Source: Fibrobacter sp.
GTDB taxonomy: Bacteria > Fibrobacterota > Fibrobacteria > Fibrobacterales > Fibrobacteraceae
NCBI GenBank assembly: GCA_012511955.1
Contig: JAAZFC010000015.1
Span: 1-57,225 of the forward strand
Length of the DNA stretch: 57,225 nucleotides
Reading direction: 5' to 3'
Shown: piece after piece, positions 3,448-9,835 of the stretch
Position numbering within the stretch: position 1 is the first letter of the stretch
Layout: every line of letters starts with the position of its first letter
Position numbers and translations under genes: made by a program
The notes under the pieces: generated by a model
The model's input: the letters and a program-made list of their open reading frames with translations, nothing else
What the model was told of the DNA's origin: nothing
Database searches by the model: none

Positions 3448-3723
3448 TTAATCCCCCTCGATTTGCGGGGTAGGAGAGGGATCTTGCCCCAAAAGCTGGT
3501 TCCATTTGTCGAAAACGGGCTTTTCTAAGGCTTCTTCCCTAAACTCATCGGGGGTCATAATGGGAATGCCGCTTATAATAGGATAGTTGCGTTCGCAAGT
3601 GGCACAGCTAAGCATGCCTTCTAAAACCTCATCGTTATCGGTGTCCAGTGTAAAGATTTGCAGATCCAAATCGCTTTTATCAAAAGGACAGCAGAGCTTT
3701 TCTTCTATGGTTTTTAACTTCAT
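3448..3723 (-). CDS. Trm112-like zinc-ribbon protein
   Basis: A 91-residue protein of the Trm112p/UPF0434 type. It has one Cys pair near the start (LCCPFD), a second at CATC, and the typical YPIISGIPIM strand. In eukaryotes and archaea Trm112 is the activating subunit of class I SAM methyltransferases. Here it is the last gene of a four-gene operon whose first gene is such a methyltransferase. The start lies 1 base after the stop of the ThiE-like gene, with a GGAGA ribosome binding site inside that gene's end. A partnership with the methyltransferase is inference; the family assignment is fairly firm. Confidence 0.75.
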   Translation of the reverse strand: MKLKTIEEKLCCPFDKSDLDLQIFTLDTDNDEVLEGMLSCATCERNYPIISGIPIMTPDEFREEALEKPVFDKWNQLLGQDPSPTPQIEGD

Positions 3724-3724
3724 T

Positions 3725-4342
3725 TTAATCTCCTAGTTGCGCCACTAATTCGCGCACAATTTGTTGAGGATGGGGGTGATTCATCACCGCCGAAATCACG
3801 GCCACCCCGTCAAAAGGCAAGCCCCGCAGTTCGCTGAGGTTTTGCGCATTAATGCCCCCCGCCAAGTACAGCGGTTTCGGGGTCAGTTTACGACATTGCA
3901 CAATGGTTTCGGGGCGCACAATTTCACAGCTTGTCACCGTAGGCGAGGGGAAAACCGAGCAAAAAGAGTAGTAATCCACCGGAGCATCTTGCTCCACCAC
4001 GCTTAAATCATTTTCCAAGGTTAGTCCGGTAATAGCATTTCGGGGAAGTTGTGCCCAAATATCTTGCCAATTTGCGGGCAAAGCATCGAAATGCACCCCA
4101 TCCAGGGCGTATTCTTTGAGCATTTCCCATTTATTGTTGATTAATACGGGAACAGAACTATCTTCCCAAATTTGCAGCACTTTTTCCACCACCGCACCCA
4201 GCTTTTGCTCTGCTTCGGGATTATCCCAAATTTGCACCGCCGCAATAGCTTCGCCGGTGATTTGTTGCAGTTGCCGGGTCATGGTTTCCAAATTCTGAGC
4301 GGAATCCACCACCACATAAATCCCTTTATGCAGTTGCTTCAT
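3725..4342 (-). CDS. ThiE/TenI-like protein (thiamine phosphate synthase superfamily)
   Basis: A 205-residue TIM-barrel protein of the ThiE/TenI family. Recognisable blocks are DGVHFDA, DYYSFCSVFPSPT (the FGPVFPTxTK phosphate loop of ThiE), PLYLAGGINAQNL and GVAVISAVM. ThiE joins the pyrimidine and thiazole halves of thiamine; TenI is a thiazole tautomerase. The strand that normally reads VQxRxK and binds pyrimidine pyrophosphate reads VQIWDN here, so the usual Arg and Lys are missing and classic synthase activity is doubtful. Third gene of the TPP-riboswitch operon, 1 base downstream of the AIR-synthase-like gene. Family confident, exact reaction open. Confidence 0.75.
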   Translation of the reverse strand: MKQLHKGIYVVVDSAQNLETMTRQLQQITGEAIAAVQIWDNPEAEQKLGAVVEKVLQIWEDSSVPVLINNKWEMLKEYALDGVHFDALPANWQDIWAQLPRNAITGLTLENDLSVVEQDAPVDYYSFCSVFPSPTVTSCEIVRPETIVQCRKLTPKPLYLAGGINAQNLSELRGLPFDGVAVISAVMNHPHPQQIVRELVAQLGD

Positions 4343-4343
4343 A

Positions 4344-5393
4344 TTATTTTAAACCTGCTTGCATAGATTGGGCAAAAACGCCCCAGTAGGGATCTTCTTC
4401 GGCGTATTCCAAAGCTTCTTTCTGCCCATTTTGCACCACGCTTTTGGTATTTTCCGCTAAAGTTCGCCCCACCACCGCCGCACTTATCCCAGCGTCTTGC
4501 AAAAGCTTCACAATTTCCGCACTTGCGGCAGGATCGCAGGCCAAAACCAGACTTCCCGTACCCACACATCTAAAAGGATCCAGCTGAAATAGCCCACACA
4601 GCGCTTTTTGCTCATTTCCCAAAGGAATCTGGTTTTGTTGCACTAACACGCCCACGCCTCCGGCGGCGCACATTTCGTAAATCGTACCCAAAACGCCACC
4701 TTCGGTAACATCGTGTAAGGCAGAAATCTTTGCTAGCATCTCGGGCTGCTGCCGTAAAGCCTGCACTTCGGACAGCACAGAAGTTTGATAAAAACTCTGG
4801 GCTAAACTGTGCTGCACCTCAGCGCCCAAATGCTTGCGCACATGCTCGGGAAAGCTTTTGGCCAATATGGCCGAGCTTGTAAGCGCTGCGCTTTTGGTGG
4901 CAATAATATCTTGCCCCGGCTTTACTTGGGCGGTGGTCTTAGCTTGGGCTAATTCCACCTGGGCAAACATAGTTACCCCCCCAGAAATGGTGGTATTAGT
5001 CACCTGATCAAAGCCCGTATGCCCACCGGTGATAGCGATGCCCATTTCTGCACAAAATTGGTGGATATAATTCCAATATTCTTGCAAAGAATCATTGCTC
5101 ATAGAGGCAGGCAAATTAAAGACAAATTGGGCGTATTGGGGCAAAAAACCACTGGTGGCTACATCGTTGGCGGTTAGCACCACCGAAAGCCAGGCGGATT
5201 CTTTGATCCCTATGGTGGGAATCAAGCTCGTGGGGTCGCTGGCCATAACCAAAGCTTGGGTATCATTAAGCTTTACCACGGCGGTATCTACGCCAAATTG
5301 TGGCCCTTGCACCACATTGGGGTTGGCAAAACCAGCATTTTTAATCATCAAGTTTTCTAGGGAACTGCGATCTATCTTTCCTAAACGGCCCAT
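4344..5393 (-). CDS. AIR-synthase-related protein (HypE/ThiL/PurM superfamily)
   Basis: A 349-residue two-domain protein of the AIRS superfamily, whose members bind ATP and phosphorylate or activate small substrates (PurM, ThiL, HypE, SelD). The N-terminal segment GPQFGVDTAVV...VMASDPTSLIPTIG and VVLTANDVATSGFLP is closer to HypE-like members than to ThiL, whose GDDAA metal-binding motif is changed to VDTAV. TGGHTGFD and HDVTEGGVLGT are the other family landmarks. Its place between a methyltransferase and a ThiE-like gene under a TPP riboswitch suggests a kinase-like step in thiamine metabolism, but a true ThiL assignment is not supported. Its start is 3 bases after the methyltransferase stop. 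Confidence 0.7.
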   Translation of the reverse strand: MGRLGKIDRSSLENLMIKNAGFANPNVVQGPQFGVDTAVVKLNDTQALVMASDPTSLIPTIGIKESAWLSVVLTANDVATSGFLPQYAQFVFNLPASMSNDSLQEYWNYIHQFCAEMGIAITGGHTGFDQVTNTTISGGVTMFAQVELAQAKTTAQVKPGQDIIATKSAALTSSAILAKSFPEHVRKHLGAEVQHSLAQSFYQTSVLSEVQALRQQPEMLAKISALHDVTEGGVLGTIYEMCAAGGVGVLVQQNQIPLGNEQKALCGLFQLDPFRCVGTGSLVLACDPAASAEIVKLLQDAGISAAVVGRTLAENTKSVVQNGQKEALEYAEEDPYWGVFAQSMQAGLK

Positions 5394-5396
5394 GAT

Positions 5397-6128
5397 TTAC
5401 CTATCTGTAAATTGAATATACATGCCAAAAAAGTCTCCCACTGGTACATCCCATTTTTTTATGGGAAACCATTTCGGCAAACCAGTACAATGCCATTTAA
5501 GGGTGTATTTACGCCCTTGAAGTGCTTTGTCAATGATCTTGCGCAAAGTCCTTGGAGTATAAAAGGTTGCGGTGTTGTAATATTGGTTTTTACCCACGGC
5601 TTGTTGGGCGCGACGGCGAATAATTTTAGGGGTATTGCGATTCATCATTCCCATAATTATCCCATATTTAGCCACTCGGGCGGCTTCTTGTAGCACTTGC
5701 ACCGGATCTTTATAATATTCAAAAGTGGTGATAAAACCCACCGCATCATAGCTTTGATCTTTAAAAGGTAAATGATGGGAGTCTGCCATGACCAAATCAC
5801 CATCAAAACGGTACAGTGCTTGGGAAAGCATAAAAGGGGAGATATCGCCCCCGGTGGATTCTAAGCCAATATCAGGCCACCAACGGGTAAAACGGGTGGT
5901 TCCACAACCAAATTCCAAAATATCTTCCACTCTTTCGTCAGCTTTAATTAGCTGTTCTAAAACGCTTTTTTGGTCGCGTTCAGCTTCTTTGTAGGGACCT
6001 TCGTAGTAATCCTCGTAGCGATCGGTGTATTCGCGGTTAAAAAACCATTCATCTCGGCCTTGCCAAGTTACTTGTTGTTGGGATATTAAGGAGGTCTTAG
6101 ATTCAGTTAATTCTTTAGTAGTTTTCAT
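5397..6128 (-). CDS. Class I SAM-dependent methyltransferase (Methyltransf_11 type)
   Basis: A 243-residue Rossmann-fold methyltransferase. Motif I is ILEFGCGTTRFT, the acidic residue that binds SAM ribose follows at GGDIS, and motif IV reads SYDAVGFITTFEYY. The C-terminal about 70 residues are basic and probably belong to substrate recognition. First gene of the TPP-riboswitch operon; the ATG follows an AGGAAAGGGA ribosome binding site (6131-6140). The substrate is unknown. Candidates are a thiamine-related metabolite or a macromolecule, with the operon's Trm112-like protein as a possible activator. That pairing is inference. Confidence 0.8.
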   Translation of the reverse strand: MKTTKELTESKTSLISQQQVTWQGRDEWFFNREYTDRYEDYYEGPYKEAERDQKSVLEQLIKADERVEDILEFGCGTTRFTRWWPDIGLESTGGDISPFMLSQALYRFDGDLVMADSHHLPFKDQSYDAVGFITTFEYYKDPVQVLQEAARVAKYGIIMGMMNRNTPKIIRRRAQQAVGKNQYYNTATFYTPRTLRKIIDKALQGRKYTLKWHCTGLPKWFPIKKWDVPVGDFFGMYIQFTDR

Positions 6129-6130
6129 AT

Positions 6131-6160
6131 TCCCTTTCCTGGGTTGACTTCGAAAAGGAA
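6131..6160 (-). promoter_or_regulatory. Likely ribosome-binding-site sequestering hairpin of the TPP riboswitch
   Basis: Between the aptamer and the methyltransferase ATG, TTCCT (6160-6156 on the minus strand) can pair with AGGAA (6140-6136), the 5' part of the purine-rich ribosome binding site. This would hide the site when TPP is bound. Only 5 base pairs are seen, so translational control is suggested rather than shown. No U-run terminator is visible here. Confidence 0.4.
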
Positions 6161-6176
6161 CTAAACCATAAGTTTT

Positions 6177-6255
6177 AGCATCTCTTCGTTGGCATTACCC
6201 AAATCAGATTTTACGGGTTTGTTCTCAGCAATGTATGCACAAAGCACCCCGTGCT
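6177..6255 (-). ncRNA. TPP (THI-element) riboswitch
   Basis: Read on the minus strand, the segment holds the conserved THI-box pieces in order: GGGGTGC (6250-6244), GCTGAGA (6229-6223), ACCC, CTGA (6207-6204) and TAATGCC (6197-6191) followed by AACGAAGAGA. A closing P1 helix AGCA/TGCT joins 6255-6252 to 6180-6177. Order and spacing match the thiamine pyrophosphate aptamer. It lies in the leader of the methyltransferase, AIRS-like, ThiE-like and Trm112-like operon and should turn it down when TPP is plentiful. Confidence 0.93.
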
Positions 6256-6272: not shown

Positions 6273-7487
6273 TTATTTCTTCCTAAAAGGTTTGGTTAAG
6301 GTTAGTTGAGTCTTTTTCAGCCAGCAACGCCCAGGACAACTGGCGCTGTTCGAAACATCGTTCCAAAACATGCAGTGTTGGCAAGGGTCAGTTATCAGCA
6401 AGCGGATTTTCTTAAAGCTACCCACGGCCAAAATAGCTATCACTAAAACTGTGCTAATTTGCAGGTATAGTCCTTCTTCCAATAGATAGCTCCACACATC
6501 TTCCCATTTGGCCATGCCCATTAATTGCGAACTCAAATGCCTAGCAGTGTGCCCGATCATTTTTACGCCTTCGCCATCTAGCATAACATAGTTCACTAAC
6601 ATTCCTCCAGCCAAAGCCATAAGTATTAACGACCCCATATAAAAGAACATGGTTTTAAGCCCCATGGATCTGCGAATCACCGAAAGTTCGCCCAAATTGG
6701 TGGCGGGACCGGCCAAAAAGTATGCAATTCCCACTCCAGGGCTGGCACCTAGCATCAACAAACGCTGCACCACGGGAATCGAAGGTACCGAACAGGTGTA
6801 AATGGGGATGGTTAATATAATCACGAAAATAATACTTAATATTCCAGCGCCCCCTAGCCAAGAAGCAATCCAATTAGGCGGCACTAACACACTAACTGCA
6901 GTGGCCAAAGTGAGCCCAAACAATAAATCTAAGCTGATTTCTGCACCTAAATCGAAGAAACCCCAGTTAAAAGCTCGTTTTATCCGTGTCCACAAAGGTT
7001 TTTTACGCTCTTCTTCTGTTAAGTCTTCATCTCGATGCTGAAATCCTTTTTGGTTTTCCCGATAAACCTTGCCTTGGGGCAAAACTTTGTTGCCTACAAA
7101 ACCTAAAATAAAAGATCCTACTAAAACTATGCCTACATAGTATGCCATAAATACTGGCCCCAACAAGCTAATTCCTAAAATAAGGGAAACTGGCGAAATA
7201 GCAGGGGACGATGTCATAAAAGAAAGCACTGTGCCTCGGGAAGCACCGCATTTAACCAGTCCTACTCCCAAAGGTATAACTCCGCATGAGCAAACAGGCA
7301 AAACCGCACCAATTCCCACCGCTTTAAGTAAAGGTCCCAAGCCCTTAGGTCCTAACCAGCGCGCTAAAAAATCCCGGGGCAAAAACTCCCGTATAAATGC
7401 GGCGATAGCATAACCCATAAGCACATAAGGTGCTGTTTCGGAAAGCGTATAAAAAAGAGTGCTGCTAAATTTTTCTAAAAGTTCCAA
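6273..7487 (-). CDS. Permease of the SO_0444/YraQ (DUF318) family, probable metal efflux
   Basis: A 404-residue inner-membrane protein with about eight hydrophobic segments. The repeated signature LPVCSCGVIPLGVGLVKCGASRG and, in the second half, PIYTCSVPSIPVVQRLLMLGASPG mark the DUF318/SO_0444 Cu/Zn efflux permeases. The Cys residues of CSCG and the Cys-rich tail (DPCQHCMFWNDV...SCPGRC) could bind metal. It lies upstream of the TPP riboswitch on the same strand, but the aptamer separates it from the operon, so a thiamine role is not implied. A divergent promoter region (7488-7564) separates it from the PEGA/FGE gene. Confidence 0.8.
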   Translation of the reverse strand: MELLEKFSSTLFYTLSETAPYVLMGYAIAAFIREFLPRDFLARWLGPKGLGPLLKAVGIGAVLPVCSCGVIPLGVGLVKCGASRGTVLSFMTSSPAISPVSLILGISLLGPVFMAYYVGIVLVGSFILGFVGNKVLPQGKVYRENQKGFQHRDEDLTEEERKKPLWTRIKRAFNWGFFDLGAEISLDLLFGLTLATAVSVLVPPNWIASWLGGAGILSIIFVIILTIPIYTCSVPSIPVVQRLLMLGASPGVGIAYFLAGPATNLGELSVIRRSMGLKTMFFYMGSLILMALAGGMLVNYVMLDGEGVKMIGHTARHLSSQLMGMAKWEDVWSYLLEEGLYLQISTVLVIAILAVGSFKKIRLLITDPCQHCMFWNDVSNSASCPGRCWLKKTQLTLTKPFRKK

Positions 7488-7564: not shown

Positions 7565-9835
7565 ATGAAAAAACTGATGATACTACTCATATTCGGTATG
7601 TTTGGCATGGCAACGGCTAAAAACTATAGCATTGACTCCACAAATTATACCACCCGTAATAATTTAATTGTAAGTGAGCGTTTGGCAATTTTGCCGGAGT
7701 TTGGCAATCAGATATTTCCATCTATGCCTTCTACCATAGAACTGGGTAGTTTGTATTTGCGCAATAAAGAAGATGCTCAATCTTATTCTTGGTTTAAATC
7801 TAAGCCTCGATCCCAAGCTTATCATAAACTGCATGCTTTTCGCGATGCTACCATCGATATTAACGAGTTTGTTTATACCAAATTCTATGGATCAATCAAC
7901 GCCAAGGCTTTCCAAGATGAAGCTGAAGTATATTTCGATGAAAACTATATATACTCCAGCAGAGTTTCTACCCTTTATTATATGCGTGATGGTCGTTGGC
8001 ACGAACTTAAATCCCAAGATGCCGAATTAGGTACTTTGATTGTGGAAACATCTTTTCCATGTTCCGTCGCTATTAATGGTCGCCAAATGGGGCTAACTCC
8101 CTTGCATTTGAGCGGAGTTATGGCTGGAGTTCATGGCATAAACTTATGGGCTCCAGGTTATATTGACCTTATCACTGGCGCGGTGGTGGTGCATGCCAAA
8201 CAAACCACCAAAGTTGTGGAAATGATTCCCCTAGATTCTGTCTCTGAATATGCTCCTTTACATCAAGTTAGCATGGAAAATGTTACTCAAGCTGTTCTTT
8301 TGGAGCAATTAGAACCCTGGTGGGATCAATTAGAAAATAATAATGAACTTTATTTGCAATTTGTGGAACAAAAAAAATCTGATTTCCATGCAATTTACCC
8401 TCCAGTTTTGAAACCACCTCCTTTTATTGCTTTGGGAGATTTGGATTATAAACGCTATATAGAACGCTTTGAACAAACTCGTGCTCAAGCCCAAGAGCAG
8501 TTTTTAGAAGTTACTGTTGGCTCCAATCAGGAGCAAGCTGCGATTTGGGAGATAGCCAATGCTCGCAAAGACAGTTTGGAGGCCGATACTTTGGTGCAAA
8601 GGGTTATGCTCGATGTGTGGCGAGTGGAATCTGATATTTTGTATTTGAAATTAAGTGATCAAAAGCAGCGCATGGATTTCACTTGGAGCACTCGTATGAA
8701 TGCTGAAATTTACAGCGATTCTCTTTTAGCTTTGTTGCAAGATAGCACTGCGGAAACCTATTTGCAGGTGAAATATCAAAATAAACCAGCTATGCTAGTA
8801 GATAGCCTACAACAGCGTTATCGTAAAAATTATCGCTATTTAGATATGTTTTTAATCGTTGAAAACGAAGTTGATACCTTAGAAGGGGTGTTTTTGTTGC
8901 CTAATTATCTGTTAGCATTGCAAGAAGTTCAAGATTGGCTAGCTGCGCAAACTCCTAAGACTTTGCCTGAAGTTGTAGATACTGTGGAGCCAGAGATTGC
9001 GGTACAAGATGTTATTCCACCACCACCTGAACCAGAAGAGCCTGAAGTTCCCATTGACCCAAATTTTTGGGTGCAGCATTACCGTGGCATTGTGGTAGAA
9101 ATTCCTGGAGGTACATTCCGCTATAAGGGTAAAACAGTGCAAATGTCGCCATTTGCTTTGCATCGCACCGAAGTTAGCCAAGAGCATTTGCAGCGCATCA
9201 CCCTTAAAAATCCCGCTAAAAAATTTGTGGGCGCTAAATTACCTGCCCACAGCATAAATTGGCATGATGCCCGCGCTTTTTGCCGTGAAATAGGTGGTGA
9301 TTTACCCACGGAAGCTCAGTGGGAATACGCTGCTCGGGCTGCCTCTGAAAGTGGTTTAGAATGGGAGCAATTTAAAGGGGAAGGCATAAGCGCCGATGAT
9401 TTTGTGGTTTATGCCAATGATCCTAAAAATAAAGATTCTGGCCCCCAAGTGGTAGCTTCTAAAAGGCCCAATGCTTGGGGCTTATACGATATGACTGGGA
9501 ATGTTTCTGAGTGGACTTTAGACAAAGATTCTTGGTTCAATTTTTATGTGCAAAGCCAAGATCCCACTGGTTCTTGGATTGGAGCTGACCGAGTTTTAAA
9601 AGGCGCTTCTTGGCAAAGCTCAGCAGATAAATTGGACTTGAAAAATAAGGATTACGAAGATCCCCGTTATTGGAGTCCCAAATTAGGTTTCCGTTGCGTG
9701 TTTCCTGCGGAACAAGCTTTAAATCCCGAAAATTTCAAAAAGGAACTTTTGGCTAAAGATTCTTTGGTTATGTCCCAAGGTTTACAGCTTTTGGGAGGCA
9801 ATATTGAACAGCTTATCCAAGAAGCCAGCCAATAA
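7565..9835 (+). CDS. Secreted PEGA-domain and FGE-sulfatase-fold protein
   Basis: A 756-residue exported protein with a signal peptide in the first about 18 residues. About residues 155-220 form a PEGA domain (GTLIVETSFPCSVAINGRQM, GLTPLHL, ...HGINLWAPGY). A helical charged middle and a Pro/Glu-rich linker follow. About residues 500-720 are an FGE/SUMF1 fold: IPGGTF, HRTEVS, PAHSINWHDARAFC, LPTEAQWEYAARA, YDMTGNVSEWT, VLKGASW and a final GFRC. The paired catalytic cysteines of true formylglycine-generating enzymes are not visible, so a structural role is more likely, as in GldK/PorK of T9SS. The link to T9SS is inference. Confidence 0.8.
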   Translation: MKKLMILLIFGMFGMATAKNYSIDSTNYTTRNNLIVSERLAILPEFGNQIFPSMPSTIELGSLYLRNKEDAQSYSWFKSKPRSQAYHKLHAFRDATIDINEFVYTKFYGSINAKAFQDEAEVYFDENYIYSSRVSTLYYMRDGRWHELKSQDAELGTLIVETSFPCSVAINGRQMGLTPLHLSGVMAGVHGINLWAPGYIDLITGAVVVHAKQTTKVVEMIPLDSVSEYAPLHQVSMENVTQAVLLEQLEPWWDQLENNNELYLQFVEQKKSDFHAIYPPVLKPPPFIALGDLDYKRYIERFEQTRAQAQEQFLEVTVGSNQEQAAIWEIANARKDSLEADTLVQRVMLDVWRVESDILYLKLSDQKQRMDFTWSTRMNAEIYSDSLLALLQDSTAETYLQVKYQNKPAMLVDSLQQRYRKNYRYLDMFLIVENEVDTLEGVFLLPNYLLALQEVQDWLAAQTPKTLPEVVDTVEPEIAVQDVIPPPPEPEEPEVPIDPNFWVQHYRGIVVEIPGGTFRYKGKTVQMSPFALHRTEVSQEHLQRITLKNPAKKFVGAKLPAHSINWHDARAFCREIGGDLPTEAQWEYAARAASESGLEWEQFKGEGISADDFVVYANDPKNKDSGPQVVASKRPNAWGLYDMTGNVSEWTLDKDSWFNFYVQSQDPTGSWIGADRVLKGASWQSSADKLDLKNKDYEDPRYWSPKLGFRCVFPAEQALNPENFKKELLAKDSLVMSQGLQLLGGNIEQLIQEASQ

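Follow-up and report, generated by a model that had tools for sequence, protein, structure and literature searches.

The window analysed here, a stretch of 57,225 nucleotides from Fibrobacter sp. (contig JAAZFC010000015.1), carries on its minus strand a thiamine pyrophosphate (TPP) riboswitch followed by four closely packed genes, which encode a class I S-adenosylmethionine-dependent methyltransferase (MT), an AIRS-superfamily protein, a ThiE/TenI-fold protein (ThiE-like) and a Trm112-like zinc ribbon. The same set recurs in other bacteria and is a conserved thiamine-dedicated operon, not a local accident. It is a TPP-riboswitch thiamine operon whose gene set, and probably also whose biochemical route, has no description in the literature searched, although most subscription papers lay outside that scope and an earlier curation is possible. 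We lean towards the reading that the operon is a TPP-repressed salvage module, which would make thiamine monophosphate (TMP) without TPK or the canonical ThiC, ThiG, ThiD and ThiE.

Operon layout, riboswitch and distribution

The genes for the MT (5397-6128, 243 aa), the AIRS protein (4344-5393, 349 aa), the ThiE-like protein (3725-4342, 205 aa) and the Trm112-like protein (3448-3723, 91 aa) follow each other on the minus strand with gaps of 3, 1 and 1 bases, in agreement with the spacing of 1-3 bases given in a first-pass annotation of this DNA. The family labels proposed there were likewise borne out, as all four products exceeded their Pfam cut-offs (Methyltransf_11, 4.3e-17; AIRS, 1.1e-12, and AIRS_C, 3.4e-19; TMP-TENI, 1.3e-24; Trm112p, 6.8e-06). 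The operon itself contains no thiC, thiG, thiS, thiD, thiM or transporter gene.

A scan at one genome per species yielded 80 AIRS loci; as these represent the strongest AIRS matches, the conservation figures apply to close relatives. Operon statistics were drawn from 49 of these loci (48 from Bacteroidota and one from Kryptoniota). The order MT-AIRS-ThiE-Trm112 on one strand was found at 37 of the 49, with genes mostly touching or overlapping (median gaps of -1, -10 and -4), while the remaining 12 mostly miss a gene owing to contig ends or the calling of open reading frames (ORFs). One locus of Sphingobacterium sp. T2 (L120:5268-7926) has an MT broken across two frames and an AIRS gene that reads through into the next stretch, which we attribute to frameshifts or sequencing errors. 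Rfam scans placed a TPP riboswitch just upstream at all 19 Bacteroidota loci tested, and when riboswitch positions were matched to AIRS positions, every Bacteroidota operon genome checked (28/28) had one immediately ahead of the operon. The suggested joint role of the four genes in a dedicated thiamine-related pathway is thus supported, as the set stands in the same order behind a TPP riboswitch in Bacteroidota.

Co-occurrence with thiamine regulation also extends to other phyla. Bipolaricaulota have two modules, each arranged as riboswitch-ThiZ-ThiX-ThiY-MT-AIRS-ThiE, and in an archaeon the MT-AIRS-ThiE core adjoins a divergent helix-turn-helix-ThiN protein, which we take to resemble ThiR, the archaeal thiamine regulator. 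Kryptoniota carry the three-gene core as an operon without a riboswitch. No homologues were found on viral contigs, and plasmid-borne AIRS relatives share less than 60% identity; the top plasmid matches are haloarchaeal, one of them beside thiamine transport genes.

The TPP aptamer called at 6177-6255 (minus strand) lies within a match to the RF00059 covariance model at 6261-6164, which spans all 105 model positions and reaches 66.5 bits, above the gathering threshold of 54.3 bits (E 6.7e-11). By this match the RNA is a real TPP riboswitch, with TPP binding and switching as its predicted properties, and a genome-wide RF00059 search found it to be the sole one in the 2.68 Mb genome (completeness 97%). 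The MT start codon lies 36 bases downstream of the aptamer. In between, a hairpin at 6129-6161 (minus strand) is a candidate expression platform, in which UUCCUUUUCG (6161-6152) pairs with GGAAAGGGAAU (about 6138-6129), immediately ahead of the MT start, and would thereby cover the MT ribosome-binding site. This hairpin was taken from the minimum-energy fold of 6180-6115 and is only suggestive, because its energy falls within that of shuffled sequences (z -1.08). Upstream, a permease gene at 6273-7487 (minus strand) stops 11 bases short of the aptamer, so the promoter must sit within the permease gene or farther upstream; a promoter scan at the operon gave no candidate above chance, and a terminator scan found none directly after the Trm112 gene. 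The permease is of the ArsP_1 family and by profile search closest in type to the Cu/Zn efflux permease SO_0444. The product of a gene at 7565-9835 (plus strand) is 756 aa long and contains PEGA and FGE-sulfatase domains.

According to the concatenated MT and AIRS tree, the window copy lies on a long branch inside the Bacteroidota copies (SH-aLRT 97-99 for the nearest branches), and its MT shares 60-74% identity with its counterparts in the Bacteroidota operons. This nesting points to horizontal acquisition, which is probably how the window operon arose. Among 168 genomes searched from the window's phylum, an AIRS relative was found only in the window's genome and in two genomes of another genus (G009 and G021). 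In the latter two, from the same family as the window, a fusion of AIRS and ThiN is encoded directly behind a TPP riboswitch (L037:9821-11404, minus strand; L046:3106-4683, plus strand), with ThiE next.

The four proteins

The ThiE-like label of the first-pass annotation holds for the fold but not for the active site. The structural model (predicted local distance difference test, pLDDT, 93.8) has B. subtilis ThiE (2tps) as its top fold match with a TM score of 0.83, while the protein stays below the NCBIfam thiE cut-off (81.5 vs 145.1 bits). In the alignment, QLREK is replaced by QIWDN, IND by INN and HxGQxD by HFD, and the lysine of TxTK is gone. The equivalents of R59, K61, D93, D112 and K159 are thereby lost, residues that we take to form the diphosphate/Mg site in B. 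subtilis ThiE numbering; the R59/K61 motif is kept in none of 47 ThiE-like sequences. The Gln of QLREK, the Asn and the phosphate loop (GGI, AVIS) are retained, and the conserved positions of the family also include two Cys and one Trp. Since the residues that hold the diphosphate of hydroxymethylpyrimidine (HMP) and the metal are replaced, the protein probably does not work as an ordinary TMP synthase.

The AIRS protein scored under the NCBIfam cut-offs for thiL (56.5 vs 184.15 bits) and hypE (85.1 vs 251.6 bits), and also under that for SelD. HypE was its closest relative, followed by SelD and ThiL, both in profile comparison and among the folds nearest to its AlphaFold model (pLDDT 93). No hyp genes were found among the identified neighbours of AIRS in other phyla, where thiamine genes are many. 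In Bacteria and Archaea, its relatives adjoin ThiT, CytX-type or ECF-type transporters, ThiXYZ, ThiD, ThiE or ThiN, in arrangements such as CytX-AIRS-ThiD, AIRS-ThiD, AIRS-ThiE, AIRS-ThiN and TPP riboswitch-AIRS-ThiZXY, and in Haloarcula an AIRS relative adjoins thiamine-transport genes. ThiT is a thiamine-specific transporter family, and transporters of HMP are also among these neighbours. The AIRS protein belongs to a separate family within the AIRS superfamily with thiamine genes as neighbours. The simplest reading is that it would be an ATP-dependent kinase giving TMP from thiamine or a congener. A role as a kinase of hydroxyethylthiazole (HET) was considered and is not favoured, as two archaeal genomes combine AIRS with ThiL but lack ThiD and a real ThiE; ThiC, ThiG and a TPK above the cut-off are absent from them too. 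A Nitrososphaerota archaeon (L138:2985-6034) shows ThiT-AIRS-Trm112-like, divergent from a gene resembling a ThiN-domain regulator; the archaeal ThiT beside AIRS matched Thia_YuaJ with 155 bits.

The Trm112-like protein passed the Pfam Trm112p cut-off (26.4 vs 22 bits) but fell below that of NCBIfam Trm112_arch (60.9 vs 77 bits), and its profile matches the archaeal Trm112 chains 6zxw_H and 6f5z_C. The zinc signature [C/D]Px[C/D]x(19-36)CxxC, as given previously (PMC5372719), is present in the window protein and in 38 of 39 homologues. The MT and Trm112 profiles each match one chain of the solved archaeal complex 6f5z, though for the MT, numerous other class I enzymes match as well. On account of their conserved co-location, we propose that the Trm112-like protein may be the activating partner of the MT. 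According to a 2017 review, the function and partners of bacterial Trm112 are entirely unknown (PMC5372719).

A candidate source of TMP and its alternatives

A pathway inventory was made for the 28 Bacteroidota operon genomes, covering ThiC, ThiG, ThiD, ThiE, TPK and ThiL. ThiC was found in three, ThiG in two, and strong ThiD in three, the same three that have a second, canonical ThiE; two Mucilaginibacter operon genomes have an additional degenerate ThiE-like protein. TPK occurs in four of the 28, compared with 207 of 392 sampled Bacteroidota (Fisher p 6e-5), a background that may include operon genomes and that was measured for TPK, not for ThiC or ThiL. Altogether, 21 of the 28 lack ThiC, ThiG, ThiD, canonical ThiE and TPK together, ThiK not having been searched. 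Canonical ThiL is present in 27 of the 28 as well as in the window's genome, outside the operon, and the idea of a missing ThiL was rejected on this ground. As the substrate of ThiL is TMP, the carriers need some source of it, for which the operon is the best candidate.

Uptake genes are also under riboswitch control. The sampled operon genomes have a second TPP riboswitch. It usually stands ahead of a TonB receptor gene, in some cases together with a gene for a PnuC-family transporter, which suggests uptake of thiamine or a relative. In Mucilaginibacter (L276:571-7780 and L277:575-7518), a weak TPP riboswitch (39 bits) precedes a TonB receptor and a PnuC-family transporter; the stretch further holds genes for a flavin-monooxygenase-like protein, a possible phosphatase and the second degenerate ThiE-like protein, and among all these PnuC alone was assigned by profile. 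Chryseobacterium (L264) shows riboswitch-PnuC-DszC/HsaA-like, and a Catalimonadaceae genome (L270:564-5011) has a TPP riboswitch, a TonB-receptor-like gene and then two NMT1/THI5-like ORFs, apparently without signal peptide, one of which was tested against Pfam. An independent study of marine metagenome-assembled genomes of Flavobacteriales and Cytophagales reported ThiL and the thiamine receptor omr1 but no biosynthesis (PMC12236431). In addition, an Arenibacter strain was experimentally shown to be a vitamin B1 auxotroph that grows on thiamine with a sub-nM half-saturation (PMC12448291). We found the operon in three other Arenibacter genomes, and the one inventoried (G176) lacks TPK.

In the proposed salvage route, the AIRS protein would phosphorylate thiamine or a close congener to the monophosphate. 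The MT and Trm112 may act as a holoenzyme on an imported thiamine congener, either a breakdown product or a precursor, toward TMP. With the phosphate-binding end of its fold intact, the ThiE-like protein may also process such a congener toward TMP. Ordinary ThiL would then convert TMP to TPP, which would close the operon via the riboswitch. These assignments, of the AIRS protein as the phosphorylating enzyme and of MT-Trm112 and the ThiE-like protein as acting on a congener, are what we infer from the genes. A fuller version is offered more tentatively, as somewhat less likely than not: a Trm112-dependent MT would act on a small molecule and, jointly with a HypE-like kinase and a repurposed ThiE fold, turn an unrecognised thiamine congener into TMP. 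As for the window's organism, profile searches did not find ThiC, ThiG or TPK (TPK_catalytic domain) in its genome. The absence of usual thiamine genes claimed in the first-pass annotation applies to the operon; elsewhere the genome keeps ThiL and, on a different contig (L216:5823-8087), thiM-thiE-thiD as a cluster without a TPP riboswitch. The module probably adds to salvage of HMP and HET by thiM-thiE-thiD.

Several points weigh against the salvage route. A plain thiamine kinase needs one gene, not four, and the route leaves the MT and the ThiE-like protein without a definite step. The AIRS protein is nearer to HypE than to ThiL in both sequence and fold. TPK accompanies the module in four Bacteroidota and two Kryptoniota, and the inventory left out thiamine kinases of the ThiK type (aminoglycoside-phosphotransferase-like). 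The Arenibacter operon genomes belong to strains other than the published auxotroph. Moreover, Bipolaricaulota have a separate riboswitch-controlled ATP-binding cassette transporter of the thiamine type, ThiBPQ-like by sequence inspection only, beside the two ThiXYZ-MT-AIRS-ThiE modules. Together with the co-carriage of TPK, this transporter suggests that the module's substrate is probably not thiamine alone.

A rather unlikely but serious alternative is that AIRS alone would be a thiamine kinase replacing TPK, with the MT, the ThiE-like protein and Trm112 repairing or detoxifying damaged thiamine phosphates or doing a similar side job. The depletion of TPK among operon carriers would fit it, as would archaeal ThiT-AIRS and other transporter-AIRS pairs without MT or ThiE-like protein, and genomes with only AIRS and ThiL. 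However, TPK is also present in some genomes, and the order MT-AIRS-ThiE-like does not vary across three bacterial phyla and one archaeon, which suggests a single pathway.

Two further explanations appear improbable. One holds that the operon makes TMP de novo by a route so far unrecognised, in place of ThiC, ThiG, ThiD and ThiE, for which the riboswitch in all 28 Bacteroidota operon genomes, the 21 without any of the usual enzymes and the retention of ThiL could be cited. But the route would have three enzymes only, and de novo synthesis is disfavoured because uptake genes are present, namely the riboswitch-controlled TonB receptors in sampled genomes and the ThiXYZ importers that precede the module in Bipolaricaulota, and because a congeneric Arenibacter strain is a B1 auxotroph (PMC12448291). 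The other, to which we give equally little credence, is ordinary salvage of HMP and HET, with the ThiE-like protein as a diverged TMP synthase and AIRS as either an additional ThiL or a kinase of HET. The folds do match ThiE and ThiL/HypE, and AIRS adjoins ThiD and ThiE in several phyla; yet none of the 47 sequences retains the R59/K61 motif of the diphosphate site, most operon genomes lack a ThiD to supply HMP diphosphate, and a canonical ThiL is already there.

Many Bacteroidota combine ThiL and thiamine uptake with no known TMP supply, a gap for which the operon is a riboswitch-tagged candidate and which is also seen in the published marine genomes (PMC12236431). If the operon fills it, auxotrophy predictions for many environmental genomes would change. 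The operon also gives bacterial Trm112 a first candidate for a partner and for a role in metabolism; if the fuller version is true, conversion of a congener to TMP would be the first known job, with the first known partner, of such a protein.

Comparison with known thiamine and Trm112 systems

The bacimethrin (bcm) operon of Clostridium presumably likewise places a methyltransferase under a TPP riboswitch; unlike what we take to be its gene content, the operon described here has no thymidylate-synthase-like, glycosyltransferase or ThiD-like genes. In B. theta, OMthi and PnuT are thiamine transporters accompanied by TPK (tnr3) (PMC5613172). The operon carriers resemble this Bacteroides salvage system in TPP-riboswitch control, the TonB receptor, the PnuC-family transporter and their placement in Bacteroidota, whereas TPK is absent from 24 of the 28 operon genomes and the four-gene operon lies outside that system (PMC5613172).

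Similar to ThiE and TenI of B. subtilis (2TPS and 1YAD), the ThiE-like protein has a TIM barrel that retains the Gln of QLREK together with GGI and AVIS at the phosphate-binding end. In contrast to them, it has lost the five diphosphate/Mg site equivalents, has gained a conserved Trp and two Cys, and has a thiE score below the cut-off. The AIRS protein shares the superfamily fold with ThiL, HypE and SelD, and its GGHT and HDxTEGG motifs recall HypE and SelD, but it scores under every curated cut-off and has thiamine genes as neighbours. Finally, the MT-Trm112 pair is like the archaeal and eukaryotic Trm112-methyltransferase holoenzymes, such as 6f5z, in its zinc-ribbon signature and in matching both chains by profile. 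Those holoenzymes act on tRNA, rRNA and release factors, whereas the putative pair described here lies in a thiamine operon.

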